Below, piece by piece: positions 1 through 26,823 of a DNA stretch of 64,000 nt (position 1 is its first letter; the number at the start of each line of letters is the position of its first letter). The notes under the pieces are model-generated. The model ran no database searches. It was not told the DNA's origin and saw only the letters and a program-made list of their open reading frames with translations. The position numbers and the translations under genes were made by a program. This DNA comes from Crambe crambe (taxonomy: Eukaryota > Porifera > Demospongiae > Poecilosclerida > Crambeidae). The stretch spans positions 4,828,001 through 4,892,000 of the forward strand of contig OZ004590.1 in NCBI GenBank assembly GCA_963924555.1, given 5' to 3'.

Positions 1-2602
1 GTCCAAAGAGAGAGAATGGTGTGAACTTCTCATCAAGTTGGACCAGGAGGGACATTATGTGGCATGTATCAAGTACCAAGGACAAAGGATTGGTCCCTCA
101 AACTTCACCATCCTCTGTCTATCAGGTAACTTATCATGGCCATGGTTTTAGTTGACTACTAGTTCAGTATCATTTTAGCCATTGTTATTTTTGATAATGA
201 TGGGCAGAGCAAAACATGCAAATTGTGGAAGATAGTGTGAAGATGAAGGATAAGGATAACATTTATTATGAAGCAAGAGATATCAATGAGTCAAAAAAGG
301 TCTACTGTTATATGTCTTCACGGGTAAGCCAATATTATGAATGTAGTTAGCTAGCCATTGATTCATGGTTCCCAACAATCAGCAATTGCAGGTGAGAGAG
401 TACGCCTTATTCTTCTTTCGCAAAAGAACATGCTCTTACAAAATATCTCCTTCAACTAAAGTGAGTTGCAATGGACTTACCCTCACTGTAGAAGTACATG
501 CATTAGCTATATATGTGTGGGACTACAGAAACTTTTCTCATTCCATAATAGATTATCTTCCATCCTGAGCCTCAGCATTTTACAGTCGATGATGGTTTTC
601 AAGAACCCCTTAAATTGGAATCCCGTCATAGGGAGATTATAGGAGCAACCTATCACAGGTTCCTTTGTCAGAACATCGGTGGTTCAGAAAAGTTCCAGGA
701 CAAGCGAAACTTCTTCTACTCCAACCTCCGAGATCACTGTGGCACTCAACATCGAACTAGGAAAGACGTGACTGTCTCAAGAATATACTTGCTAGAAAGT
801 GTAAGTCAAATGATAGCTAAATAGTAGACCATTTTCCTCTCCTCTATTTCTACTTAGGCAATGGAGGCTACTAGAAGATTTCGCAGTGAAGACTGGTATA
901 AAAAATTTAATATTATATTCAGACACGAACCAGGTGAGATGACTCATGTAAATCACTTTTAGCATTTCATGACTCTAGAATGATTTGTACAGGCCTGGAT
1001 TATGGAGGAGTAGGCAGAGAGTTTTTTGAACTCATCTGTGTTAATCTGTTCGATGCTTCAAACAGACTCTTCATGCAATTCAATGATGAGAATCACCAAG
1101 CCCTGGTGAGTGGATCATTCTGTACACATTATAAAATGTACGTAGCCCTTACATTCTGTTTTGCAGGTCCATCCTAACTACTCTAGCAAGCGTCCTTCTA
1201 ACTTAACATTGGAACATTTCAACTTTGCTGGAAAGATTGTGGGCAAGTGTCTGTATGAAAGTGCAATGGGGAACACTCTTCTTGTTAAGGCGAGGTTCAC
1301 ACGATCCTTCCTAGCTCAGCTTATTGGTCTCAGGATAAACTACATGGTATGACTGAATTTCACAAGTCAATGGAGCAAGGTGTCAATGCATGATTGGTTT
1401 GATAGCTAGAGGGTTGAGAGATGGTTCACAAACCTAGAACCATGTATCTATAGTAACCTCATTGATGTGTACATTCAATTCCTGAATTGTGGGATAATTC
1501 TGGACATGAGCTCTGTTTAAAGTGTCTGAAATTATTCGGGTTTACCTTGATTCCAGTACTTTGAGAGTGACGACCCAGACCTTTACACAACTAAGATACA
1601 ATATATATTGGAGCAAGATATGTCAGAGGAAGACCTAGGTCTTGTCTTTGCAGAGGAAGAATTCGACTCTCATAATGGACACAAAGTAAAATTTATTGCT
1701 TTATTGTTCTATCTTCATGATGTCAATTGTGTCATCTCTGATCACCATTGCACTCAGGTGGTTCCTCTCATAGCGAATGGGGAAAGAATAGAAGTTACTG
1801 AAAGGAACAAAAGACAGTATCTCAATGAACTTGCACGATACAGATTTACGAGACGAGTCAGTGAGGAGATTCAGGAGTTTTTGAATGGTATACCAATATA
1901 GTTAGCTGTAACTAAAGCTGCCTATGTATCTTTTGCACATAGGATTGAATGAAATTATCCCCAACAAATTAGGACTGCTGAGTACATTCAATGAACATGA
2001 GTTGGAGGTAATATCAGTGGGAACACCCATATAGCAGTATGCTGCAGCTTCGTTAGCTATGGCTAGCTACATGTAATGAGCTAATGAAATAATTATATGC
2101 CTCTGGCAGCTACTGATGTGTGGAATAGATCAAGTGAGCTATGAGGACTTAAAAGAGCACGCCAACGTGAGTGGGAGCAGTCTTGTGTTCCAGCGTGTCC
2201 TTGCCTGGTTCTGGACCACAGTCAGTGCCTTCACACAGGAAGAAATGGCCAAGCTCCTCCAGTTTGTGACGGGCTCTTCCCAACTGCCTCCTGGTGGCTT
2301 TGCAGAACTGAATCCTCGCTTCACAATCACTTCTGCTCCAACAACAGGAAGACTTCCAACAGCACACACTTGGTAAATTCCTTTTTTTGCTTTGAGTATG
2401 AAAGTGAGCATAGCTGCCATTATGAGCAATTTCCGTGCATTCTTATTTATTTATTTGTGTATAGTTAATGATTGAGTTCTTCACATACTTGAATTGCAGT
2501 TTCAATAGGCTGTGTTTGCCAGAGTACAGTTCATGTGAGCAATTCCAGACGTCACTCATGATAGCCCTAAATGAAGGTACTGAAGGATTTGGCATGGCAT
2601 AA
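1..2602 (+). CDS. AREL1: AREL1-like HECT E3 ubiquitin ligase, copy A (5' truncated by window edge)
   Basis: This is the 3' two-thirds of a multi-exon E3 ligase gene. It opens inside the filamin-type repeat (SKEREWCELLIKLDQEGHYV), continues through the linker (exons near 600-810 and 860-935) and the whole HECT domain, and stops at TAA 2600-2602. HECT signatures include FELICVNLFD, GKIVGKCLYES, RFTRSFLAQLIGLR and LPPGGFAEL. The catalytic segment PTAHTCFN is assembled across an intron (2373-2499). AREL1 transfers ubiquitin through this cysteine, and vertebrate AREL1 ubiquitinates IAP antagonists; that is family knowledge and not visible here. The C-terminus GFGMA resembles vertebrate GFGML. The upstream exons lie outside the window, so whether this copy has the tetraspanin part seen in copy C cannot be told. 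No stop or frameshift was seen in the exons read. Confidence 0.92.
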
Positions 2603-2898
2603 CTAGTTACCAACTTGTCCAGTTGTTGTTGTTGTTGTTATTTTTTTATCATGAAATTTTATTCATGTGCATAAAATTTATTACTTCATTGGACAATGTT
2701 GCACAGCTAATTTACTGCAGTAGCCACATGGAGTTGCTCCTTCATTATAATTATACAGTTCCACTGCATTATATATATAGCTGCACACATATTGTACTGT
2801 ATGAGTTTCATATATAGACCTTCCTATTAGTAGTTTGTTGTTTTTTTGTCTTTTTTTGTGTGCTTGTCATTGGTAAATCTTCATGTGTGGCTCTATGC
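2603..2898. other. 3' flank of AREL1 copy A
   Basis: This AT-rich stretch has a short GTT run (about 2622-2640) and no gene. It is nearly identical to 17578-17878 downstream of copy B, which shows that the duplicated unit extends beyond the stop codon. Confidence 0.6.
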
Positions 2899-3134
2899 TT
2901 ATAAACAAGTCAAGAATCCAGCTATAGAATCTGCTACATAATGTGGTTTTGTTCCTCCTCCCTGTCCACTCATCATGTCTTCTCTTGAAGTAGCTCCAGT
3001 GAAAACCAAAATAGTCTTCATCCCAAAATTCAGTCCAAACTGAATATCTGTGTTCAATCTACATGTCACAGTAAAGTTAGCAGGTGAAAGTAAAAGGGCC
3101 CAAATGTTATCTGATCTTGTGATCCATACCATAC
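2899..3134 (-). pseudogene. Isolated last exon of a PGP-like phosphatase
   Basis: The minus strand encodes the C-terminal end of a phosphoglycolate phosphatase: RLNTDIQFGLNFGMKT, then ILVFTGATSRED, then KPHYVADSIAGFLTCL and a TAA stop. It is nearly identical to the last exon of the PGP gene at 18025-20014, and the similarity continues into the preceding intron to about 3220. None of the upstream PGP exons follow, so this is an orphan fragment carried along with AREL1 copy A. Here the stop is the ancestral TTA-TAA; the intact gene has a mobile element at this point. Confidence 0.8.
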
Positions 3135-10753: not shown

Positions 10754-10800
10754 TAACTTGTTTCATAGACCCTAAAAATTGATTGTGGAAAATCTATGGT

Positions 10801-11825
10801 TATAAACAAGTCAAGAATCCAGCTATAGAGTCTGCTACATATGTGGTTTTGTTCCTCCTCCCTGTCCACTCATCTTGAAGTAGCTCCAGTGAAAACCAAA
10901 ATAGTCTTCATCCCAAAATTCAACCCAAACTGAATATAGTGTTCAATCTACACATCATAGTAATCTTGAAAGTAAAAGTGAAATTGGGGCCCAATGTTGT
11001 CTGATCTTATTGACCCAATACATATATCCTTTTGTGGTTACTGGTTACCACAGTGAGGCTTATGGTCCACCCCTACATGTTTCTAGGTGATAGTTAGGCC
11101 CCAGTAGCAGCCACACATAATTTTGCATTGATTACCTGTCTCCAATCATGAGGGTCCTAGCCAGGTCCAAGTTGGTCCTAAAGGAAAATAGACGATATTA
11201 ACCCAGTGCAGTACTCCCCAGTTACCTTTTTCTGATCACTTCAAACATGGGTGTGTTGGGTTTTCATATTATCAATGGCTCCCTCTCTGCTCCGTGCTTG
11301 ACAGCCTGCATAAGTCATCCAGTGCCTGCACACATGAACACAGACAGTCTGTCATGACCTCCATACATTCTGTGTCATGAGCATGAGGACACACCACAGA
11401 ACCAGTACTCACTAGAAATATTCCAACCATTTCAAGGAGTGCACTGTTAAATGTTAGAGCCAATAGTCACTATACACCCTTTCACTGCAATGCAGAAACT
11501 TTTGTTATGATTATCTTTGGAAGCGTCCTCATTGGTAGCAATAAAGTGGTTCTTTCAGTTCTTAGCATAGCTACATGCTTTGATCAAGCTGATCGTAGGT
11601 AACCACTACAGCTTTCACCTGAAAAAGGGAGAGAAATAGGTTCATACCAAGAACGCAAAACAAAGATATAAACACAATCGTTAAAATGAGCTCACGACTA
11701 TGGGTATGGGAATGTCTTTTCCCACTCTGCAGGTTCTCCCTGAATATGGTCCATCCCTGGCCCAATGTAAGTCATTCCCAAGGAAGAGAGCTCCTTATCC
11801 ATTCCAGTGAGAAGCCAGTTACGGT
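10801..11825 (-). pseudogene. Degenerate PGP copy
   Basis: The exon order and introns parallel the intact PGP gene (18025-19300), but the copy is broken. The last exon has a deletion in the GATSRED region (near 10875). The exon at 11265-11340 has TGA in place of the cysteine of GTGCLVQAV. The 11740-11825 exon (LSSLGMTYIG) carries deletions and lacks sequence 5' of it. No N-terminal exons with the catalytic FDCDGV motif were found. It lies just upstream of the remnants of AREL1 copy B, so it is another trace of the PGP-AREL1 duplicated unit. Confidence 0.82.
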
Positions 11826-12126
11826 TACATGATCAATATGAGCAATCTGACCAACTAGTTCGCTCCAATCACTTCCGCTTTCCACTTTCCTGTTGGCCGG
11901 CACCAGACCCCTCCCCCGCCCCCAAGAAAAAGTAGGTAAAGGGTCGGCTACGCCAGGCGGGTTCAACGTACGTACGTACGTTCGGATATGGCCGATCTAT
12001 ATCTATGGTTCGGCGGGTCGATACGCCCTTGTACTAGCACTATGATTGGCAGTTACTGATGGCCACCGGCAAGCTCACTCTATTAGTATTCTATCACGTC
12101 CATTTGGCAAGTTGTGTGTATGTAGC

Positions 12127-13656
12127 TATGCCGGGATCAGCTTAATTCTCACCAAAAATGGTGGAGTAACTGCTCGAGGATTTTGTGGTCGCGCTTTCGA
12201 ACGAATTTTGGTGCAGCTCCTCATTGCATCAGGTCTGCATAGTGGTAGTTGCTACTAGAGCCTTTTCCTGGATAATGATTGTATGCTATTCTCTCTACAC
12301 ATTCAATTCTACAGAATTTATTTGTTATGGCCTTCACCACTATCCATAAAGTAATAATTCCTGCTATTCTTGGTTTCATCTATAATAACCCTGAAGCAGT
12401 AAGTGCCCTACATCAAGTTAGCCTTGCAGAGCCTGACTCCGTAAGACTAACATTAGTACTAGTACTGAGGTAATTTCCTTAGTTAACAGGATTTATATGG
12501 CCAGTTGTGCTATGGTCCAAGCTTCCACTCATCTCATAATAGATAACTTAAGCTAACTCCACCTAGGATTTGGCCAATTGAATTTCTATTCCATATCACT
12601 TCTGTTTGTATCAACTCCTGTGGTTTTTCCAAGAAAATGACTATCAAAATATAATGGCCATACTATGCCCCCCCCCCCCCCTCCCCCCCTCCGCATCTGT
12701 CTGACCTGATGAGAAACTAAATGTGGCCTAAACCACCTCCACCCATATTACAGTTGCTGTCTGCATGTCTGCCCGTCCGTCTGTGTGTCTGTCACCTCTC
12801 TGTCTGTCTGTCTGTATTCTAGGACATAGAGTGTTACATGATGCACTAGAATTGTTTTTTTTTTGTTTTTGTTTTTTTTTTTGTTTTTTTGAAAGGACCC
12901 CCAGTGTGCATGCATAGTACTCAGTCATATCTGTGTATTACTACTGGGTCAGCAGCCACTAGAATCCCTGAAACTTCAAAGCAAGATTTGTATCTGTCTA
13001 TCTGTTATATCCATAGTCAGTAGTGATTAAAACGCTTCTTCAACCTCAACAATACCTAGATGATATTCTCCAGTGTTTAAATTATCCATTAGATAAAGGC
13101 TTTATTCCAGAAAGAAGGCAATGATGGCAAGTGGCCAAGCCACATATGTGGTGTGAGGCGGGAGATAACTCCTTATTTTGCTGCATGTTGGCAGTTTCTG
13201 GTTCATAATGGGAAGAGTGGCCATCAAGAAGTAGAATAACTTGACGAGCAGGAGGAATATGACTGATTTAATTGATTGGTCATCCAATAATTCGTCCTTT
13301 TTCCGACATTATTGTATAGCTTCTGTACAACTGTACTTTATGCAATGACTATCATAATGTTTGTTAACCATTAGAATGCACGTGACTCATCTCCTACTCA
13401 GTTCAGTAAACTGCATTCACTCTTAGCTAGTAACTTATAGCTGCAGACCTTTTAACTATTGTGTTTTATGTGTGGGCTGAGGGCAGTGCTTTTCATTTGA
13501 AGAAGGAAGAAATTTAATGTTGTGATGGGTGTAATTATATTATTTCGCATGATTATAAAATAAGTATTCTTGGGGACCCCTTTCTTGAAAAATCCTCTAG
13601 TTATGTATAACTGCATGACTGCAAGAGGATTAGGTATCCCCTTTGCTATCCTTTAA
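12127..13656 (+). pseudogene. Decayed tetraspanin exons upstream of AREL1 copy B
   Basis: Three patches match tetraspanin exons of copy C. (i) 12127-12245 corresponds to TM1-TM2 (frame YAGISLILTKNGG against SAGIHLLATNG; TTTTGGTGCAGCTC is shared at DNA level), with frameshifts. (ii) About 12310-12390 corresponds to TM3 (KVIIPAILGFIYNNPEA against EVISAILGFAYSNQV) and ends at a GTAAGTG donor. (iii) About 13590-13656 corresponds to the first half of TM4 (TARGLGIPFAIL-stop against AIGGVGLFFAILQ), with TAA (13654-13656) replacing the Gln codon and an earlier TAA in frame. The large extracellular loop exons with the CCG motif were not found. Intact TM4/ligase exons follow from 13838. Confidence 0.7.
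12660..12900. repeat. Low-complexity tracts (poly-C, TCTG, poly-T)
   Basis: A C-run at about 12667-12690, CTGT/TCTG repeats at about 12780-12815 and T-rich sequence at about 12855-12892, in a gene-poor stretch (12480-13580) where no coding exon could be supported. Confidence 0.8.
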
Positions 13657-13837
13657 CAATAAGCATGGAAGAGTAACAGTTGAATATCTACTTTATGATG
13701 ATGTAGCTAACTCTGAGATTCTAATTGTATCAAATTGCATGCAAGGAGCAGAATTAACTGAGCAAGAAAAATTAATGACCACTGAGACATGAATATAATT
13801 GTTTCTTCTGCTGTTTCTCCTTGTATAGGTTTCTTTC

Positions 13838-16800
13838 CTATTTTCGGTTGCCTTGATATATGTCATTCACAGATATAATCAGCGTACTTTCACACCAAAT
13901 GGTAACTACGTTTCAGGTACATTATAAATCATCATGAATTATGGATGACTGACTGCATGTTTGCTTCACTAGAATGTGTTTCCCTTGAGCTGTCTAACTC
14001 TAATCTGGAAGACAGACATGAAGACAGTGTTTTGGAGTGGAATCATGACAATTTCAAACAAGTTGGAGGTTCATCAGTACTCACTATTAATGTGAGTATG
14101 TACTTTACTCTCCATTTCAGTACATTTCTTCTTGTCTTTTTGAATAGCTTGTGAGCAATAGAGGCTCTCCATACACCTGCAAACCTTCAGACCACTTTCA
14201 TTGTGGGATCTGGTACATTAAAGGGACTGCTCTAGCCACTCGGCCTACTACTGTAATCCCTCATGTGATAGAACCCAGCTCTTTAACAGGTCAAAGCACC
14301 ATCAAAGTCTCCTTTACTGCCAAAATCTCAGGTGCGTATTCCATCCGTCTCATATTCAATGGTCAGCCCATTGGTGGAAACATATACAGAAAATATTTGC
14401 CAGGTAATTTTTCTTCATTATAATTCTTTGGGTGGGGATGGACATTAAATGAAGCATTACTGTAATTGATATTTGAGTAAAAAAAGCTCACAGAGCAGCT
14501 GGTTTATTTACAATTGCTTATAATAGGTCCTGTTGATTCCAATAAGACAGTCTTTATGGACTTCAGCGCTGTGTTTCTGGTTACCAAAGGTGTTTATAAA
14601 CTGATGAAGATCATTCCCAAGGATTCGTATGGCAATGAAATAGACATAGATGAGAGTTCCATTACAGTTGAGATAAGGAAGGTCATTTACACAGGCTCAG
14701 AGCTTAGTTCTACATGTAGTATGATACATGCATTTGTAAAAGATGCATTGTATGATTGTGCTCTTACAATAGGATAGTGAAGATGGAACAAAAGTATTCC
14801 ATGAGCTTGTGGTGTCCAAAGAGAGAGAATGGTGTGAACTCCTTATCAAGTTGGACAAGGAGGGGCACTATGTGGCCTGTATCAAGTACCTAGGACAAAG
14901 GATTGGTCCCTCAAACTTCACCATCCTCAGTCTATCAGGTAACCTATGGTTTTAGTTGACTAGTTCAGTGTCATTTTAGCCATTGTTGTTTTTGATAATG
15001 ATGGGCAGAGCAAAACATGCAAATTGTGGAAGATAACGTGAAGATTAAGGATAAGGATAACGTTTATTATGAAGCAAGAGATATCAATAGGTCAAAAAAG
15101 GTCTACTGTTATATGTCTTCACGGGTAAGCCAATATTATAAATGTAGTTAGCTAGCCATTGATTCTCCTAATAATCAGCAATTGCAGGTGAGAGAGTACG
15201 CCTTATTCTTCTTTCGCAAAAGAACACGCTCTTACAAAATATCTCCTTCAACTAAAGTGAGTTGCAATTAATAGAATGCTCACATGTATGCATGCATAAT
15301 AACTACAGAATTATATATCTCTAGATTATCTTCCATCTTGAGCCTCAGCATTTTACAGTCGATGATGGTTTTCAAGAACCCCTTAAATTGGAATCCCGTC
15401 ATAGGGAGATTATAGGAGCAACCTATCACAGGTTCCTTTGTCAGAACATCGGTGGCTCAGAAAAGTTCCAGGACAAGCGAGACTTCTTCTACTCCAAGCT
15501 CCGAGGTTGCCATGACACTGAACATCGAACCAGGAAAGATGTGACTGTCTCAAGGATATACTTGCTTGAAAGTGTAAGTCAAATGACAGTTAAATAGCTA
15601 CCATTATACTTTCGTCTCTTCCTACTTAGGCAATGGAGGCTACTAAAAGATTTCCCAGTGAAGACTGGTATAAAAAATTTAACATTAAATTCGAAGATGA
15701 ACCAGGTGAGATGACTCATGTAAATCACTTTTAGCATTTGATGACTTTATACAGGGCTGGATTATGGAGGAGTAGGCAGGGAGTTTTTTGAACTCATCTG
15801 TGTTAATCTGTTTGATGCTTCTAACAGACTCTTCATGCAATTCAGTGATGAGAACCACCAAGCCCTGGTGAGTGGATTATTCAATCTGTACACAATGTCA
15901 ACTGATAAGTGTACCCCTTATAAACATGGAAGGTGGTGCTTATAGATTTTAATGACCAAACTCACAGAGTCTGAGGACTCAACAGAATATAAGGTATATG
16001 AAGGAAGGGAAATCCCATTCAATTCCTATACAAAAATCGGATAGCTAGCATTATTCTCTGTTTGATGCAGGTCCATCCTAACTACTCCAGCAAGCGTCCT
16101 CCTAACTTAACATTGGAACATTTCAACTTTGCTGGAAAGATAGTGGGCAAGTGTCTGTATGAGAGTGCAATGGGGAACACCCTTCTTGTCAAAGCGAGGT
16201 TCACAAGATCCTTCCTAGCTCAGCTCATTGGTCTCAGGATAAACTACATGGTATGCAAAGCATATGTGACAGTCGAGGGTAGAAATCAAACTTTATTCAC
16301 GTTTTAGTCAAAGTTTCCTTTTGTCATGACTGATGCTTTACAATACAATTTTCTGCCTTTCGAACTTTTTTTTTCAAAAGTAGAAAGCGTGAATAAAGTT
16401 TGATTTCTATCCTCGACTGTCACATAATATTATATAGCCACCCACCATTCAGGTTTACCTTAACTGAGGTGTGTGTCAACACGGTTGTTAGTTCTACAAG
16501 TTTCATGAACCACTTCCCAACCCCATCCTGGTTTACCTTATCACTACTATAATATTATTATTGATTCCAGTACTTTGAGAGTGATGACCCAGACCTTTAC
16601 ACAACTAAGATACAGTATATATTGGACCAAGATATATCAGAGGAAGACCTAGGTCTTGTCTTTGCAGAGGAAGAATTCGACTCTCGTAATGGACACAAAG
16701 TAACTATCTTCATGATGTCAATTGTGTCATCTCTGATCACCATTGCACTCAGGTGGTTCCTCTCATAGCGAATGGGGAAAGAATAGAAGTTACTGAAAGG

Positions 16801-17577
16801 AACAAAAGACAGTATCTCAATGAACTTGCACGATACAGATTTACGAGACGAGTCAGTGAGGAGATTCAGGAGTTTTTGAATGGTATAATATGTAATAGCT
16901 ATAGTTAGCTGTAACTAAAGATGCCTATGTATCTTTTGCACATAGGACTGAATGAAATTATCCCTGATAATTTAGGACTGCTAAGTACATTCAATGAACA
17001 TGAGTTGGAGGTAATGTCAGTGGGAACACCCAACTTAGAATGCCAGCTAGCAGCTTAACTATAATACATTTATGCCTCTGGCAGCTACTGATGTGTGGAA
17101 TAGATCAAGTGAGCTATGAAGACTTAAAAGAGCACGCCAACGTGAGCGGGAGCAGTCTTGTGTTCCAGCGTGTCCTTGCCTGGTTCTGGACCACAGTCAG
17201 TGCCTTCACACAGGAAGAAATGGCCAAGCTCCTCCAGTTTGTGACGGGCTCTTCCCAACTGCCTCCTGGTGGCTTTGCAGAACTGGATCCTCGCTTCACA
17301 ATCACTTCTGCTCCAACAACAGGAAGACTTCCAACAGCACACACTTGGTAAATTCCTTTTTTTGCTTTGAGTATGAAAGTGAGCATAGCTGCCATTATGA
17401 ACAATTTCCGTGCATTCTTATTTATTTATTTGTGTATAGTTAATGATTGAGTTCTTCACATACTTGAATTGCAGTTTCAATAGGCTGTGTTTGCCAGAGT
17501 ACAGTTCATGTGAGCAATTCCAGACGTCACTCATGATAGCCCTAAATGAAGGTACTGAAGGATTTGGCATGGAATAA
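13838..17577 (+). CDS. AREL1: AREL1-like HECT E3 ligase, copy B (5' tetraspanin part degenerate)
   Basis: Exons run from a membrane segment (13838-13910, FLFSVALIYVIHRYNQR) through SVLEWNHDNFKQVGG, two filamin-like segments (NRGSPYTCKPSDHFH; GPVDSNKTVFMDFSAVFLV) and the complete HECT domain to TAA 17575-17577. The catalytic PTAHTCFN is again made across an intron placed in the Cys codon. The splice frame at 13910/13968 (G|AA) is consistent. One HECT intron is much shorter than in copies A and C (about 53 bp near 16700), and another contains a MITE (16263-16426). The ligase part looks intact, but the upstream exons needed to start translation are broken, so the gene either uses an unseen promoter and start or is a dying copy. 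Confidence 0.8.
16263..16426. mobile_element. MITE inside a HECT intron of copy B
   Basis: A 164-bp element with terminal inverted repeats of about 36 bp (TATGTGACAGTCGAGG ... CCTCGACTGTCACATA), TA at each end and no ORF. The corresponding intron in copies A and C has unrelated sequence, so the insertion is specific to copy B. Confidence 0.85.
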
Positions 17578-17879: not shown

Positions 17880-18031
17880 CAGTTGATTTGATGAGACTTG
17901 TAACAGATTTTTTTAGCATCCTACTACAATGTTATTACATGGGTACCACATTTCATTGATGTAGTCAGAGTTTGGTTAACCACTGGCTACAAAAGTCCAG
18001 AACTCTGTTGCAAGTTTTACTAAATCAACTG
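17880..18031. mobile_element. 152-bp mariner-type MITE inserted at the PGP stop codon
   Basis: About 28-bp imperfect inverted repeats (CAGTTGATTTGATGAGACTT ... its complement ending AAATCAACTG) flanked by a duplicated TA (17878-17879 and 18032-18033). The empty site is preserved in copy A's flank near 2899 (gcttataaacaag), which proves the insertion and its exact borders. No coding capacity. Confidence 0.93.
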
Positions 18032-20014
18032 TATAAACAAGTCAAGAATCCAGCTATAGAATCTGCTACATAATGTGGTTTTGTTCCTCCTCCCTGTCCA
18101 CTCGTCATGTCTTCTCTTGAAGTAGCTCCAGTGAAAACCAAAATAGTCTTCATCCCAAAATTCAGTCCAAACTGAATATCTGTGTTCAATCTACATGTCA
18201 CAGTAAAGTTAGCAGGTGAAAGTAAAAGGGCCCAAATGTTATCTGATCTTGTGATCCATACCATACATCATGTATACTCCTTAACCTCTTGTGGTGACTG
18301 GTTACCACAATGAGGCTTATAGCGCTAATTAATATTTCCACCCCTACATATTTCTAGTTGTCAAGAATATCTTAGGTGATAGTTAGGCCCTAGTAGCAGA
18401 GTAGCATGCAGGTAAGAGGCCACACATACAATGGTCCTTCTTTTGCAATTTTCTGCACTGTTTTCATATCATTACCTGTCTCCAATCATGAGGGTCCTAG
18501 CAGGATCCAAGTTGGTCCTAAAGAGAAACAAGCGATATTTATCACCCAGTGCACTGCAGTGTTCTATTCAAAACCTTTTTCTGATCACTTCGAACATGGG
18601 TGTGTTGGGTTTTCCTATTATCAATGGCTCCCTCTCTGCTCCGTGCTTGACGGCCTGCACAAGACATCCAGTGCCTGCACACATGAATACAGACAGTGTC
18701 TGGATCTTTTAATAGTCACTACACAGTGGAACCTTTCACTGCAATGCAGAAACTTTTAAAACATAGTACATACACTGACCCACGGCCACTTAAGTGCACC
18801 ACACCCCACTCCTATAAGTGGTCGTTTATGGTTTACCTGGAATCACTATCTCCTTGTTCTCTATTGGGAAGGAGGCGTCTTCATTGGTGGCGATAAAGTG
18901 GTTCTCTCTGTTCTTAGCATAGCTGCACGCTTTGATCAACTTGGCGAAGCTGAAGTGTTTGTCATAGGTAACCACTACAGCCTTCACCTGAAAAAGGGAG
19001 AGAAATAGGTTAATACCAAAATCAGTTCTTATATTAACACAAAACAAAGATACCAACACAATCATTAAAATAAGCTCATAGGGTATGGGAATGGTGACAA
19101 AATAGGACTGGCATGAGAATGGGATTGTAGTGGTATGGGACTACAATAGGGTATGGGAATGAGACTGATATGAGGGTATAGAATAACTGTACCTCAGGAT
19201 CCAACGTTGTCTTTGCCCACTCTGCGGGTTCTCCCTGAATGGGGTCCACCCCTGGCCCAATATAAGTCATTCCCAAGGAAGAGAGCTCCTTACCGAAGCC
19301 TTCCATCCCAGCTAGAAAAACTTTACCTTCAAAGTTCAACATGTGCCGTAGGTAGTAAGCAGTGACATAGCTAGTGCAGAAGATCTCATCCTATCAATGA
19401 AAAATAATACCAACATAATTTTATTGATATCATCAAGTACTTCGTATGCTTCAAAATCGAGTCTTTTGAACTTCTCTAGACACTCGGCACGTGACTTGCT
19501 GCCATGGTTGCTCACAAAGTATATAGACTTTCCCTGCAAGAGTCAAGAGAAAAGAACCAAAGAATAATTGAGACTTGCTAGTAAAATTTATCAAGCACAT
19601 AGCTAGAATATAAAGGCCATGAAAATTTCCAGTTATACAAAGTCACTCAATGCGGACATTGCACGTCTTTATTATATTGCAGTGGCATTTTAGGGAGCAT
19701 ACATTGACTCCATTGCTAATGTCCAAGAAATGACACTTCAACAATGTTATAGTGCTCAGAAACCTTTGCTCTGAGAAAGCGGATGACTTCTTGTGCTCTT
19801 GGAATTGCTCCACTGGTTCCTGTCCACAGCACTCCTATTGAGCAGAGAGAGGGGATTACCACCTGATTCACAGCTAAGCTTATGCCATCACATTAGCTAG
19901 TAACTAGGTAACTATTTGGCTTGCTAAGTTATTACCGTCACAGTCAAAAAGCACGGAATCTGCTCCATCCATAACTTTTTGCCAGTCATCTCTAGTTCTT
20001 AATTCAGCAGCCAT
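18025..20014 (-). CDS. PGP: Phosphoglycolate / glycerol-3-phosphate phosphatase (HAD family)
   Basis: A HAD-superfamily phosphatase of the PGP/chronophin type, which hydrolyses 2-phosphoglycolate and glycerol-3-phosphate in the cytosol. Start ATG at 20014 (MAAELRTRDDWQKVMDGADS). Motif I is FDCDGVLW (nucleophile Asp and acid-base Asp, split by an intron), motif II is YFVSNHGSKSR, the cap segment includes YLRHMLNFEGKVFLAGMEGF, motif III Lys is in IIGKPNTPMFE, and motif IV is LDPARTLMIGDR followed across an intron by LNTDIQFG. Exons join in frame. The C-terminus FLTCLYS and the TGA stop are contributed partly by the inserted MITE; the ancestral form ended FLTCL. The 5' end is close to a CRE/GC-rich promoter and 163 bp from the stop of AREL1 copy C. 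This is the only intact PGP of three traces in the window. Confidence 0.92.
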
Positions 20015-20045
20015 CAGCCACTGACCCACTCCCACTTTTGCAGTG

Positions 20046-20100
20046 CAACTCTAGTGACGTCACATGCGCGCGCTATCTAGCTGCTTAATTAATTGCGGGC
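20046..20100 (-). promoter_or_regulatory. Probable PGP promoter with CRE and NRF1-like sites
   Basis: TGACGTCA followed directly by CATGCGCGCGC lies about 35-55 bp upstream of the PGP ATG. It resembles the ATF/CREB and NRF1 sites typical of TATA-less housekeeping promoters. Function is inferred. Confidence 0.5.
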
Positions 20101-20176: not shown

Positions 20177-23100
20177 TTATTCCATGCCGAATCCTTCAGC
20201 ACCTTCATTTAGGGCTATCATGAGTGACGTCTGGAATTGCTCACATGAACTGTACTCTGGCAAACACAGCCTATTGAAACTGCAAATTAATTAAGTTAAT
20301 GAAATCACAGCTATGTCAATAATAACTAACAAACAAACAACAGGCAGGTAAAGTTCCTACTCAAAGCAAATTAAGAAATTTACCAAGTGTGTGCTGTTGG
20401 AAGTCTTCCTGTTGTTGGAGCAGAAGTGATTGTGAAGCGAGGATTCAGTTCTGCAAAGCCACCAGGAGGCAGTTGGGAACAGCCTGTCACAAACTGGAGG
20501 AGCTTGGCCATTTCTTCCTGTGTGAAGGCACTGACTGTGGTCCAGAACCAGGCAAGGACACGCTGGAACACAAGACTGCTCCCACTCACGTTGGCGTGCT
20601 CTTTTAAGTCTTCATAGCTCACTTGATCTATTCCACACATCAGTAGCTGCCAGAGGCATAAATGTATTATAGTTAAGCTGCTAGCTGGCATTCTAAGTTG
20701 GGTGTTCCCACTGACATTACCTCCAACTCATGTTCATTGAATGTGCTTAGCAGTCCTAAATTATCAGGGATAATTTCATTCAGTCCTATGTGCAAAAGAT
20801 ACATAGGCATCTTTAGTTACAGCTAACTATAGCTATAACATATTATTATACCATTCAAAAACTCCTGAATCTCCTCACTGACCCGTCTCGTAAATCTGTA
20901 TTGTGCAAGTTCGTTGAGATACTGTCTTTTGTTCCTTTCAGTAACTTCTTTTCTTTCCCCATTTGCTATGAGAGGAACCACCTGAGTGCAATGGTGATCA
21001 GAGATGACACAATTGACATCATGAAGATAGAACAATAAAGCAATAAATTTTACTTTGTGTCCATTATGAGAGTCGAATTCTTCCTCTGCAAAGACAAGAC
21101 CTAGGTCTTCCTCTGACATATCTTGCTCCAATATATATTGTATCTTAGTTGTGTAAAGGTCTGGGTCGTCACTCTCAAAGTACTGGAATCAAGGTAAACC
21201 CGAATAATTTCAGACACTTTAAACAGAGCTCATGTCCAGAATTATCCCACAATTCAGGAATTGAATGTACACATCAATGAGGTTACTATAGATACATGGT
21301 TCTAGGTTTGTGAACCATCTCTCAACCCTCTAGCTATCCAACCAATCATGCATTGACACCTTGCTCCATTGACTTGTGAAATTCAGTCATACCATGTAGT
21401 TTATCCTGAGACCAATAAGCTGAGCTAGGAAGGATCGTGTGAACCTCGCCTTAACAAGAAGAGTGTTCCCCATTGCACTTTCATACAGACACTTGCCCAC
21501 AATCTTTCCAGCAAAGTTGAAATGTTCCAACGTTAAGTTAGAAGGACGCTTGCTAGAGTAGTTAGGATGGACCTGCAAAACAGAATGCAAGGGCTACGTA
21601 CATTTTACAATGTGTACAGAATGATCCACTCACCAGGGCTTGGTGATTCTCATCATTGAATTGCATGAAGAGTCTGTTTGAAGCATCGAACAGATTAACA
21701 CAGATGAGTTCAAAAAACTCTCTGCCTACTCCTCCATAATCCAGGCCTGTACAAATCATTCTAGAGTCATGAAATGCTAAAAGTGATTTACATGAGTCAT
21801 CTCACCTGGTTCGTGTCTGAATATAATATTAAATTTTTTATACCAGTCTTCACTGCGAAATCTTCTAGTAGCCTCCATTGCCTAAGTAGGAATAGAGGAG
21901 AGGAAAATGGTCTACTATTTAGCTATCATTTGACTTACACTTTCTAGCAAGTATATTCTTGAGACAGTCACGTCTTTCCTAGTTCGATGTTGAGTGCCAC
22001 AGTGATCTCGGAGGTTGGAGTAGAAGAAGTCTCGCTTGTCCTGGAACTTTTCTGAACCACCGATGTTCTGACAAAGGAACCTGTGATAGGTTGCTCCTAT
22101 AATCTCCCTATGACGGGATTCCAATTTAAGGGGTTCTTGAAAACCATCATCGACTGTAAAATGCTGAGGCTCAGGATGGAAGATAATCTATTATGGAATG
22201 AGAAAAGTTTCTGTAGTCCCACACATGTATAGCTAATGCATGTACTTCTACAGTGAGGGTAAGTCCATTGCAACTCACTTTAGTTGAAAGAGATACTTTG
22301 TAAGAGCGTGTTCTTTTGCGAAAGAATAACAAGGTGCTTTCTCTCACTTGGAATTGCTGATTGATTCATTATGACATAACTAATAACGCCACCAGCAAAT
22401 CAACAGCTAGTAATGACTTACCCGTGAATACAAATAGCAGCGGACCTTTTTTGAATTATTAATAACATCTCTTGCTTCATAATTAATATCTTTCTTGCTC
22501 TTTCTCTCCACATTATTTTCCACAATTTGCATGTTCTGCTCTGAAAACAGCATGACAACTCTGTATTAGAGTACCCATCAGATGCTTTACTATACTAGCC
22601 TAGTAGAGTGATATCTGTGATGAGACATTGCCATTTGTAGCATTAGGTCATAATATATCCTATATCACTATGTCATGTGAAGTTCTAACATCTAGGCCTA
22701 GCTTAGCAGGTTGTACCACATATTAGCTACCAGTAATGCATGCCCCATACCTGAGAGACTGAGGATGGTGAAGTTCGGGGGACCAATCCTTTGTCCTTGG
22801 TACTTTATACATGCCACATAATGTCCCTCCTGGTCCAACTTGATAAGGAGTTCACACCATTCCCTCTCTTTGGATACCACGAGCTCATGGGTTACTTCTG
22901 TTCCATTTTCACCATCCTATTGTTATTAGATGTAAGAAGAGAGATGCAGTGCAATTAACTTAGTCGTGCAGGTCCTTTTATGCATCACAATCACATGCAC
23001 AACTCAATTCATGATTCCAATTATAAAAGCATTAGCTATGATGTAGTTCAATGACCTTCTTTATCTCAACTGTGATAGAATTCTCATCTATGTCTACTTC

Positions 23101-26100
23101 ATTGCCGTATGAGTCCTTGGGAATGATCCTAATCAGCTTATAGACGCCTTTAGTAACTAGAAACACAGCACTAAAGTCCACAAAAACTGTCTTGTTGGAA
23201 TCAACAGGACCTGTATTAAGTCATAACCAATTGTAAACAAACTCTCACAGCTATTATGTGAACTTTAGACTTTACTACTGTAATGGCTTATTTCCCCAAA
23301 TGCTATATTGTCAACAGCTAACCATATGTAATATCACCTGGCAAATATTTTCTGTATATATTATTTGCACCAATGAGCTGGCGATTGAACGTGAGACGGA
23401 TGGAATACTGGCCTGAGATTTTGGCAGTGAAGGAGATTTTGATGGTGTTTTGACCTGTTAAAGAGCCGGGTTCTATCACGTGGGGAATCACAGTAGTAGT
23501 CTGAGTGCCTAGTGCAGTTTCTTTAATGTGCTGGACTTCACAATGGAAGTAGTCTGAGGGTTTGCAGGTGTATGGAGAGCCTCTATTGCTCATAAGCTAT
23601 AAAAAATTAAAAGAAACGTTCTGAAGAAGCTAGACATTTTTTTACAATAGGACTTGATATATTATGACATGAAGGTTTCATTAATTAAGGGGGTGGGCAG
23701 GGGTGGGGGGTTATTCCAGCTATGGCTCCCTGTGTGTATCCTTGAAATTTATTTATCCATCCATTTCACTCCAATCATAGCTACTCACTTTAATAGTGAG
23801 TACTGATAAACCTCCAACTTGTTTGAGATTGTCATGATTCCACTCCAAAATACTACGCCTGGTGTCCAGAAATACGGGTACAATTTCTTCATGTCTCTCT
23901 TCTTCTGGATCAACATAGGTAATTGGTGGGAGAGTGATGATGAGTCTATGCTGATTCTTGTGAATGACATAAATAAGGGACACCACAAGTAGGAAAGGAA
24001 TCACCTGTATGTATATGTATGGGGGGGGGGGGGGGGGGGGGGGGGGGAGAGAGAGGGGAGAGAGGGGGGAAGGGAGGGGAGAGGGGGGAGAGGGGGAGGG
24101 GAGGGAGAGATAATCTATAGACATTAATTTATGTCACTATTCTAGTTAGTGTAGCTAAAATTAACATGCTGTACTGTACATGTGCAGAATACTCAAGTCA
24201 ATACTTTGCAGCTGTTCAATTCAAGGCCAAGGGTAGAAGAATTCATGTACTATAAAAGCCTATAGATCAGTTACACAGCTACTATCATAATTTTGAGGCT
24301 GGCTAGAGTGCCTGTCATTGTTGATCCATTTTGTAATGGGGTGTGGTCATAATATTTTGAATTTCGAACTTTTTACTTATCTGGCATAGCCAATTGAGGT
24401 TGGTTATTGAATTCCATGCACTTACTTGAAGGATAGCAAAGAAGAGACCTACTCCTCCAATAGCAGCTGCTCTCATTTTAAAGGCATCTGTAACTGGTTG
24501 ACTACAGGACTGGAAAGAAAAATCACTAGGTGTCAAACTTAACTATATGTAGGTATATAGGGTAGGTGTGGGTATTATGAGTCAGCTAAGTATTGTTGCT
24601 CTTTTCTTGGAAATGAACTATCTTAGAATCCTGAAAATTGCTCCAGATATAAATAGGTTATGTAGAACTAATGTGTGGAGAAAGTAATAAAAATATTGCA
24701 TCTTGTAGATAGGAGTTATGATCTTACATAACATACTCAGGAAGGTATTATGAGTCATAGGTATGAATTATGAGTCGCTGGCTTGATTTTCGTCTCTAAA
24801 AATTGATAATGTAGCTAAGATTTCTACAAAATAAAAATAATAACCTTAGATTACTTTAAAATTCATTTTTTACTCCATCTTGTGGCATCATTGCTTCCCT
24901 GCACTTTTTTTATTCAGATTGGTTACGTTGTACCCATTTTTAAACTTCTCATTTAAGATTATGTTTATGTATGAATAAGGCATTTTCTGGATGATTTTAT
25001 TTGATCAAAAGACCAAAAAAATGATTAAGTTTTCATATCTAAAGTATCAACTCTTGTAGATTCTTATCAAGTGGTGAACCCATAATAGGGACTGACTCAT
25101 AATACCCACACCTACCCTACTTACTGAACTAAAGATTCTTTGCCCAGTATCAACATCCATACAGGTGGTAGTATTACACTCACAGCTCTCTGGATATGTC
25201 AAAACTGAGTCAAAATACGGCAAGCTTTCCCAGATGATGGTAGCATTCCATCCACAACATCTGAACTGGAATAATATCATCCATGCAAAGTCATCGTCTC
25301 ATTGAAAAGTATATATTTTTATCACACTTGCACTAGCTAGCTATACACACAGCAAGGTTAAATCAAACTTTACCACAACTAAAGTCAACTACTTACATTT
25401 TGTTGTATGTTATCAACCGCTTCATTAATGCTCTTATCGTAGCCTGGTGTGTCTGGTGGAAGGTAATTCTCCATGGCTTCAGTTATTTCACTGGAGGCTG
25501 TTTCAGTCTGAGTAGAATGATATTAGCTTATTAAATGCATAAACGTAACAGGAGAGTGGGCACTGAAGTTCTAACCCTCCGCATACATTATCATCGAAGG
25601 CATAGGCAAATAAAAACTCATGCATGTCTGCATCACAATTACGTCACTTCTAAACACTAACCGATTACATGCAGTTTACAAACAAAAGTGTGCTGTGAAC
25701 ACCAATAGTGTCCGTATTTGGACAAAAATGTCCCTATATATATGCACAAGCACACTCAAGTGTACTGTAACCCTCTCATGTATGCACACTGAGGGTAGCT
25801 AATAATGCTAGTATTATCCTACTATAAGGTGAGTGAAAGTTTGGCCCATATTAGCACAATGACGTAGTATACTATACAAATACTATAGATCACTACATTT
25901 CATCATTACTTGATAGCATGCACTTACAACTTGGTTGCTGTAGGCGAAACCAAGAATAGCAGAAATTACTTCAAAGAAGATGATGATGGCCACAACAACC
26001 AAGTACTGCATGTGGAGTGTATAGTGACAAAGATTATTTGAATACTCATAAGCATATGTACTGTACTACAATTATTATAGCTACAGCTATTCACGACCCG

Positions 26101-26823
26101 AGCATAATAATAGCTAATGCAAGGACAGCTCACCTCATCAGGAATCCAACGTTTTGGGATCCAAAAATTAGCTTGTATTTAATGGGTACTAGCTATAGCT
26201 ATTAAAATTAATGCATACAGTAAGGCAAAGCGGGGCTATTCCGAACGGTGGGGCTATTCCGTAGGGTCAAATATTTTCAAAACTCCTCGAGCTTATGAGC
26301 TCTAATTTGAAAGGTGTATTCTACTATTATAGTAGATTATATCCTCCAACATTGAGCTCAGAAGCTTCAGTAGTTTCAGAAATATTTGAACAATACGGAA
26401 TTACCCGCCATTCGAAATAGCCCCGCTTTACCTTACATAGCTAGCTAGAGAATAACGTACAATAATTAGTATCCGTTTTCGTTGGATATAGGCCCCAGCA
26501 ACTCCCACTATGCTGACCACAAAAACTGCTATTCCACAGATGAGGAGAAGAGCCGCACCAAAAAAGAAGTTACTTCCAATGAACAAGGAGAAAGCACCAT
26601 TTGTGGCTAGAAGATGGATTCCAGCTGATATCAATCCAATACTTATTACCTGCATGCCAATAAAACGTGCAACTAAGTTAGAGTCCTATTGCAACTCAAG
26701 CCCAACCCAACTTCTTTCTCCCCCCACGGATAATTAACTTAGCTAGCTACGTACGAGGTACAAAATATTGGTTAGGATGACGGAGATCTTTATGTACTTG
26801 CCCTGCTTTCTTGTTGGAGCCAT
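20177..26823 (-). CDS. AREL1: Tetraspanin-filamin-HECT fusion E3 ligase (AREL1 copy C, full length)
   Basis: Start ATG at 26823 (MAPTRKQGKYIKISVILTNI), stop TAA 20177-20179. The N-terminal part is a tetraspanin: TM1 (to about 26600), TM2 (FGAALLLICGIAVFVVSIVG), TM3 (YLVVVAIIIFFEVISAILGF, 25930-26008), a large loop with FRCCGWNAT (CCG motif), PESCECN and SCSQPV, then TM4 (AAAIGGVGLFFAILQ | VIPFLLVVSLIYVI). The exon boundaries in this half are phase 0 and in frame. The exon at about 23790-24005 holds the second half of TM4 and runs without a stop into ILEWNHDNLKQVGG, the start of the AREL1 filamin region. A full HECT domain follows, with the catalytic Cys codon split between 20279 and 20384. 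Tetraspanin topology puts the tail in the cytosol, where HECT must work. Vertebrate AREL1 has only one N-terminal membrane segment. Confidence 0.87.
24020..24112. repeat. Poly-G / GGGA-rich intronic tract
   Basis: About 28 consecutive G followed by GGGGAGA-type repeats, close to the acceptor side of the intron that precedes the tetraspanin/ligase junction exon. Confidence 0.9.
26221..26435. mobile_element. MITE, 'GGGGCTATTCCGAACGG' family, copy 2
   Basis: Same family as 8783-8977, flanked by TA and with ends AAGGCAAAGCGGGGC / CCCCGCTTTACCTTA. The left arm carries an internal duplication of the GGGGCTATTCCG block. It lies in the intron between the tetraspanin TM2 and TM3 exons. Confidence 0.88.

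Follow-up and report, generated by a model that had tools for sequence, protein, structure and literature searches.

A predicted tetraspanin–AREL1-type HECT ubiquitin ligase fusion gene in the sponge Crambe crambe

The stretch of DNA analysed here (the window, 64,000 nucleotides) comes from the sponge Crambe crambe (assembly GCA_963924555.1, contig OZ004590.1, positions 4,828,001 to 4,892,000 of the forward strand). Its minus strand carries, from 26823 to 20177, a gene of 21 exons that keeps a single intact frame when rebuilt exon by exon (Table 1); it is referred to below as copy A, and B, C, D and E denote the other AREL1 copies of the same genome. These bounds are identical to those given in an earlier note on this DNA, which had described tetraspanin and AREL1 exons on one strand, joined by GT..AG introns that are in phase 0 throughout the tetraspanin half. 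The rebuilt model agrees with that description: all 20 introns are GT..AG as chosen, the six between the seven tetraspanin exons are without exception in phase 0, and the ligase half mixes phases 0, 1 and 2. Exon edges were picked by eye, guided by the sequence and by the relatives of the gene, and several donors in the ligase half are weak (for example, gtcatt and gtgata). The donor of exon 3 fits better when placed three bases later, at 25928 and just before gtaagtg; the protein thereby gains one Val and grows from 989 to 990 residues.

Table 1. Exons of the predicted fusion gene (copy A) and parts of the neighbouring copies B and C, in window positions. T1–T4 are the stand-alone tetraspanin genes next to AREL1-D.
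Feature	Position	Strand	Content
A, exon 1	26755..26823	minus	start codon, short N-terminus, TM1 start
A, exon 2	26461..26649	minus	remainder of TM1, small loop, TM2; 189 bases, same in T1–T4
A, exon 3	25928..26005	minus	TM3; 78 bases, same in T1–T4
A, exon 4	25397..25507	minus	large extracellular loop, first part
A, exon 5	25125..25265	minus	large-loop CCG and ESCEC motifs
A, exon 6	24426..24509	minus	large-loop end, TM4 start; 84 bases, same in T1–T4
A, exon 7 (fusion exon)	23789..24004	minus	TM4 remainder, linker of about 25 residues, AREL1 start; no stop
A, exon 8	23338..23596	minus	pre-HECT AREL1 region
A, exon 9	23056..23210	minus	pre-HECT AREL1 region
A, exon 10	22751..22916	minus	pre-HECT AREL1 region
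A, exon 11	22422..22540	minus	pre-HECT AREL1 region
A, exon 12	22279..22356	minus	pre-HECT AREL1 region
A, exon 13	21939..22187	minus	extended HECT region begins
A, exon 14	21806..21881	minus	extended HECT region
A, exon 15	21634..21746	minus	HECT
A, exon 16	21393..21572	minus	HECT
A, exon 17	21054..21182	minus	HECT
A, exon 18	20852..20981	minus	HECT
A, exon 19	20721..20785	minus	HECT
A, exon 20	20384..20646	minus	HECT; catalytic Cys codon divided by the intron before exon 21
A, exon 21	20177..20279	minus	HECT C-terminus, stop; AATAAA at 20181 overlapping the stop
B, tetraspanin exon 3 remnant	12322..12406	plus	decayed, 72.9% identical to A
B, tetraspanin exon 6 remnant	13625..13670	plus	decayed, 78.3% identical to A
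B, fusion-exon TM4 part, remnant	13830..13886	plus	75.4%; about 140 bases ahead of the ligase part
B, fusion-exon ligase part	14026..14098	plus	94.5% identical to A
B, 14 ligase exons	14148..17577	plus	intact frame; copy B region 12104-17577
C, 3' ligase half	1..2602	plus	intact frame; 5' part situated before window position 1 (L017 from 8369)

The tetraspanin half has the hallmarks of its family. The protein matches the Pfam Tetraspanin profile (PF00335) with 112.1 bits against a cut-off of 32.1, over residues 11–235 and profile positions 1–221 of 225, and this half alone finds Tspan7 (9w2b) as its best match among PDB sequences (2.1e-15, residues 11–243). Six 19-residue hydropathy peaks exceed the threshold; two pairs overlap, and together the six make up four hydrophobic segments at about residues 20–41, 55–73, 83–101 and 204–237 (in the 989-residue numbering). 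The large loop contains the CCG motif and four further cysteines (C152, C153, C177, C179, C184 and C198), so that the four membrane helices and CCG loop read earlier from the sequence are borne out. Tetraspanins usually end in a short cytosolic C-terminal tail, which is no strict rule; the tail of A is not short, with about 750 ligase residues following TM4. Cysteines on the cytosolic side near the membrane, also common rather than obligatory, are the palmitoylation sites used in tetraspanin web formation. Residues 1–300 of A contain no Cys before position 61 or after position 198 and no membrane-near Cys at the N-terminus: counterparts of the N-terminal cysteines of the related genes T4 (C10 and C17) and T1 (C26 and C34) are missing.

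The ligase half is an AREL1-type HECT E3 of predicted activity. Its HECT domain (PF00632) scores 255.4 bits against a cut-off of 23.9 and occupies residues 677–989, and the best match of the whole protein among PDB sequences is human AREL1 (6jx5, 8.6e-131), with which the catalytic-Cys segment, TAHTCFN, can be aligned. An Ig/filamin-like region between the membrane and the HECT domain is typical of AREL1; the Filamin profile gives E 0.032 with A, at 15.5 bits under its cut-off of 26.9, and the pre-HECT region parallels that of the unfused copy D (AREL1-D) exon for exon. What would anchor this ligase in the membrane is the four-TM tetraspanin, not a single N-terminal TM of the AREL1 kind.

The two halves meet inside exon 7, whose 216 bases run from the last part of TM4 into the first part of the ligase with no stop between them. 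An exon spanning both in this way had been placed at about 23790-24005, and it is found at 24004-23789 in the present model. Its 5' part resembles the last exon of T4, and its 3' part an inner exon of AREL1-D (LDxxRxILEWNH). When the bases of exon 7 were shuffled, 0.975% of 20,000 shuffles were stop-free in the coding frame, a control that is weak because a second frame has its sole stop at the first codon of the exon and is otherwise open; the third frame contains several stops. An open frame arising by chance was rejected as an account of exon 7 because both of its ends are homologous to known exons.

A search of the same genome with the AREL1 part yielded at least 32 matches in five places, read as copies A to E, of which B and C lie beside A, D on the same contig 1.7 Mb away, and E on C20; the C5 gene is a more distant HECT gene. 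The strongest non-self matches of the tetraspanin half of A fall in the neighbourhood of AREL1-D, a complete gene without a tetraspanin (C13:6537549-6531916, minus strand). Four stand-alone tetraspanins share its strand, in the order AREL1-T1-T2-T3-T4 (C13:6524435-6537549, minus; L036 and L037), and all four fit the seven-exon, phase-0 layout seen in A. In the 9 kb upstream of the first exon of AREL1-D, no tetraspanin-like match is listed at E up to 1. AREL1-D is like A in the order of its ligase exons and is 69.6% identical to it across 681 aligned codons (dN/dS 0.115, at a dS of 1.8 that is near saturation). However, it differs at the N-terminus, where it has no tetraspanin part and carries hydrophobic segments of its own to which nothing in the model of A corresponds. 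By eye this N-terminus (L037 4871-6549, C13:6535871-6537549) is long, with several hydrophobic stretches; it gives a SAM_2 match of 19.4 bits, below the cut-off of 20.5.

T4, the last of the four tetraspanins (L036 4555-2435, minus), is sister to the tetraspanin half of A, with support of 99/99, in a tree whose six rows are A, T1–T4 and one single-exon C15 tetraspanin on a long branch. These rows cover part of the tetraspanins of the genome, for which 12 matches are listed. The two proteins share 48.7% identity over 240 codons and the same six intron places, all in phase 0, whereas T4 has two extra N-terminal cysteines and reaches a stop seven residues past the common TM4-HK sequence. The dN/dS ratio between them is about 0.2, at a dS of 1.9 that is likewise near saturation, and the branch leading to A is the shorter one (0.28 versus 0.68 for T4); for T2 versus T3 the ratio is 0.57. 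An intact tetraspanin half with this ratio and this branch length favours the reading of A as one protein.

Copies B and C have lost the tetraspanin half. In B, decayed pieces of it lie ahead of an open ligase frame (Table 1). In C, which covers L017 5960-9000 and the first 2602 bases of the window, the ligase half is open through 14 exons, from L017 8369 to window position 2602; upstream, DNA comparison with A picks out no more than exon 6 and the part of exon 7 that encodes ligase, the exon 6 remnant lying about 310 bases ahead of the latter. Such loss in two of three local copies invites the thought that A, too, is a chimera without function that is undergoing the same decay. Yet A is intact across 990 codons, and its ratio and branch length relative to T4 speak against decay, which we regard as very improbable. 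The repetitive cluster, with three AREL1 copies within about 28 kb, could raise the suspicion that the assembly has placed a tetraspanin gene beside an AREL1 gene by error. The junction, however, lies inside one open exon, and tetraspanin remnants precede the ligase parts of both B and C, which makes an assembly error in a single copy unlikely as the source of the join; this is the account to which we give the least credence of all. The TM4 remnant of B, which keeps its place just ahead of the ligase part, makes it probable that the fused layout had already arisen when A, B and C parted.

The ligase exons of B and C differ from each other by a dS of about 0.1, compared with only 73–79% identity in the blocks upstream of them, and this disparity makes gene conversion between the two ligase halves likely. 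Their dN/dS ratios of 0.25 to 0.34 may, as a result of such conversion, not mirror selection on each copy. The idea that this genome contains many such fusions was not borne out: among the matches listed, a whole tetraspanin half is present only at A. Copy E (L018 1932-2159, C20:3441932-3442159) is a diverged AREL1 whose first ligase frame begins MGAALRFISRSFRRICTC. Read from its first Met, this frame starts MGAALRF and shows no TM by eye, and E is possibly a lipid-anchored or soluble form, though additional upstream exons are possible; the 8 kb upstream of it contain a single weak, low-complexity tetraspanin-like match (E 0.12). The window positions 2892-3000 and 10793-10890 hold two occurrences, 88% identical to each other, of a repeated block of about 100 bases, which by eye recurs at about 18030-18180; flanking the AREL1 copies as it does, it may mark the edges of duplications.

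The stop-free exon 7 and the presence of both Pfam families above their cut-offs in one frame argue that A encodes one protein. Judging from the gene model, we put at roughly three in four the probability that its main product is a single 990-residue polypeptide in which the tail of a tetraspanin runs into an AREL1-type pre-HECT and HECT region. The most serious competitor is a pair of transcription units with exon 7 in common, the joint protein being rare or absent. One transcript would encode the tetraspanin only and end in intron 7, its frame reaching a stop near 23753, where an AATAAA lies just within the intron; the other would start in intron 6, where an ATG at 24124 is open into and through exon 7, and would use TM4 as a single-pass anchor, as in vertebrate AREL1. 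The ligase halves of B and C, which have stayed open after the loss of tetraspanin exons, fit this arrangement as well. The signals themselves are less telling than they look, since AATAAA is a frequent chance hexamer (the 7.9 kb scanned on the minus strand contain nine AATAAA/ATTAAA sites) and the frame in intron 6 is open because the C/T-rich tract before the acceptor lies in its path. Moreover, the stop found in the last exon of T4 has no equivalent in exon 7. We therefore consider two separate units unlikely and retain the single polypeptide as the preferred reading. Nevertheless, the ligase frames of B and C are still open although no complete tetraspanin half precedes them, so the ligase may be expressed separately in these two copies, and perhaps also in A. 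These open ligases are the strongest argument that the fusion is not strictly required.

As to how the fusion arose, the probable event is the joining of the last exon of a T4-like tetraspanin to an AREL1 exon from inside that gene, with displacement of the ligase's own anchor. Tandem duplication of a cluster of the AREL1-T1-T2-T3-T4 type would have set a T4-like tetraspanin upstream of an AREL1 gene, and a deletion would then have joined the last exon of the one to an inner exon of the other, within the exon, removing both the tetraspanin stop codon and the membrane segments of the ligase. Duplication followed by deletion is the simplest history that we infer; T4 and AREL1-D themselves are relatives rather than the parents. 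Within a single genome, the locus suggests a route by which a ligase may exchange its anchor, since both halves have a surviving unfused relative and these relatives are neighbours.

The earlier reading of this locus as a gene for a membrane-anchored tetraspanin–AREL1 E3 stands as a gene model, with the ligase placed after TM4 and hence on the cytosolic side. Both ends of a tetraspanin lie inside the cell (PMC8761850), which would put a ligase behind TM4 in the cytosol and leave the anchor as the only thing changed. A report on human AREL1 describes one N-terminal TM, location in the ER and a cytosolic ligase (PMC12864862). Set beside that description, A is similar in being a HECT enzyme with an aligned catalytic-Cys segment and a cytosolic ligase behind an N-terminal membrane anchor, but in place of the single TM in the ER it has an entire tetraspanin, extracellular loop included. 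Most likely, then, A is a HECT ligase that a tetraspanin holds on the cytosolic side of a membrane. The tetraspanin would act as both anchor and address label, choosing the membrane and the neighbours of the ligase, and the HECT domain would be brought next to proteins that bind to the tetraspanin or travel with it, so that ubiquitination would be confined to that membrane. Placement in tetraspanin microdomains, where the earlier note would have the HECT domain ubiquitinate partner receptors, is possible, but the absence from A of N-terminal cysteines of the T4 and T1 type is a weak argument against it. That the tetraspanin part of a single polypeptide collects membrane partners while its HECT domain tags these partners or their cytosolic neighbours, the AREL1 anchor having been exchanged, is a tentative proposal to which we give somewhat less than even odds. 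If it is true, the adjacency of AREL1 and tetraspanins at one locus and their fusion at another would suggest that the two families are functionally connected.

Both halves of A belong to known families; it is their combination that appears to be new, and a tetraspanin anchor appears to be a departure among AREL1-type ligases. No description of a tetraspanin–HECT protein was found among the listed titles and opening abstracts of open-licence literature on tetraspanins together with the HECT domain or AREL1. The ligases RNF149, RNF152 and GRAIL are RING rather than HECT enzymes, and GRAIL is reportedly another E3 that acts on tetraspanins. As the titles of the respective papers indicate, RNF149 acts on CD63 (PMC11298846) and RNF152 on TSPAN12 (PMC7890835). 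All three resemble A in pairing a ubiquitin ligase with a tetraspanin, but unlike A they are separate proteins, for which the tetraspanin is a substrate and has no anchor role. Tetraspanins are generally regarded as non-enzymatic organisers, and a natural tetraspanin–ligase fusion would offer a test case for an organiser that bears an enzyme. It would also suggest that a partnership between tetraspanins and AREL1 be sought in other places.

The fusion gene is flanked on both sides by further reading frames. Just downstream of it, on the minus strand at 19076-20050, a likeness to haloacid-dehalogenase-type phosphatases can be seen by eye (VLFDCDG motif); for three of the open frames there, searched separately, Pfam returned nothing at 0.01. 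On the other side of A, about 600 bases upstream and also on the minus strand, an uninterrupted frame of 1050 residues at 27421-30573 matches the Pfam Slo-like RCK and BK_channel_a families and represents a calcium-activated potassium channel gene that is intronless there.
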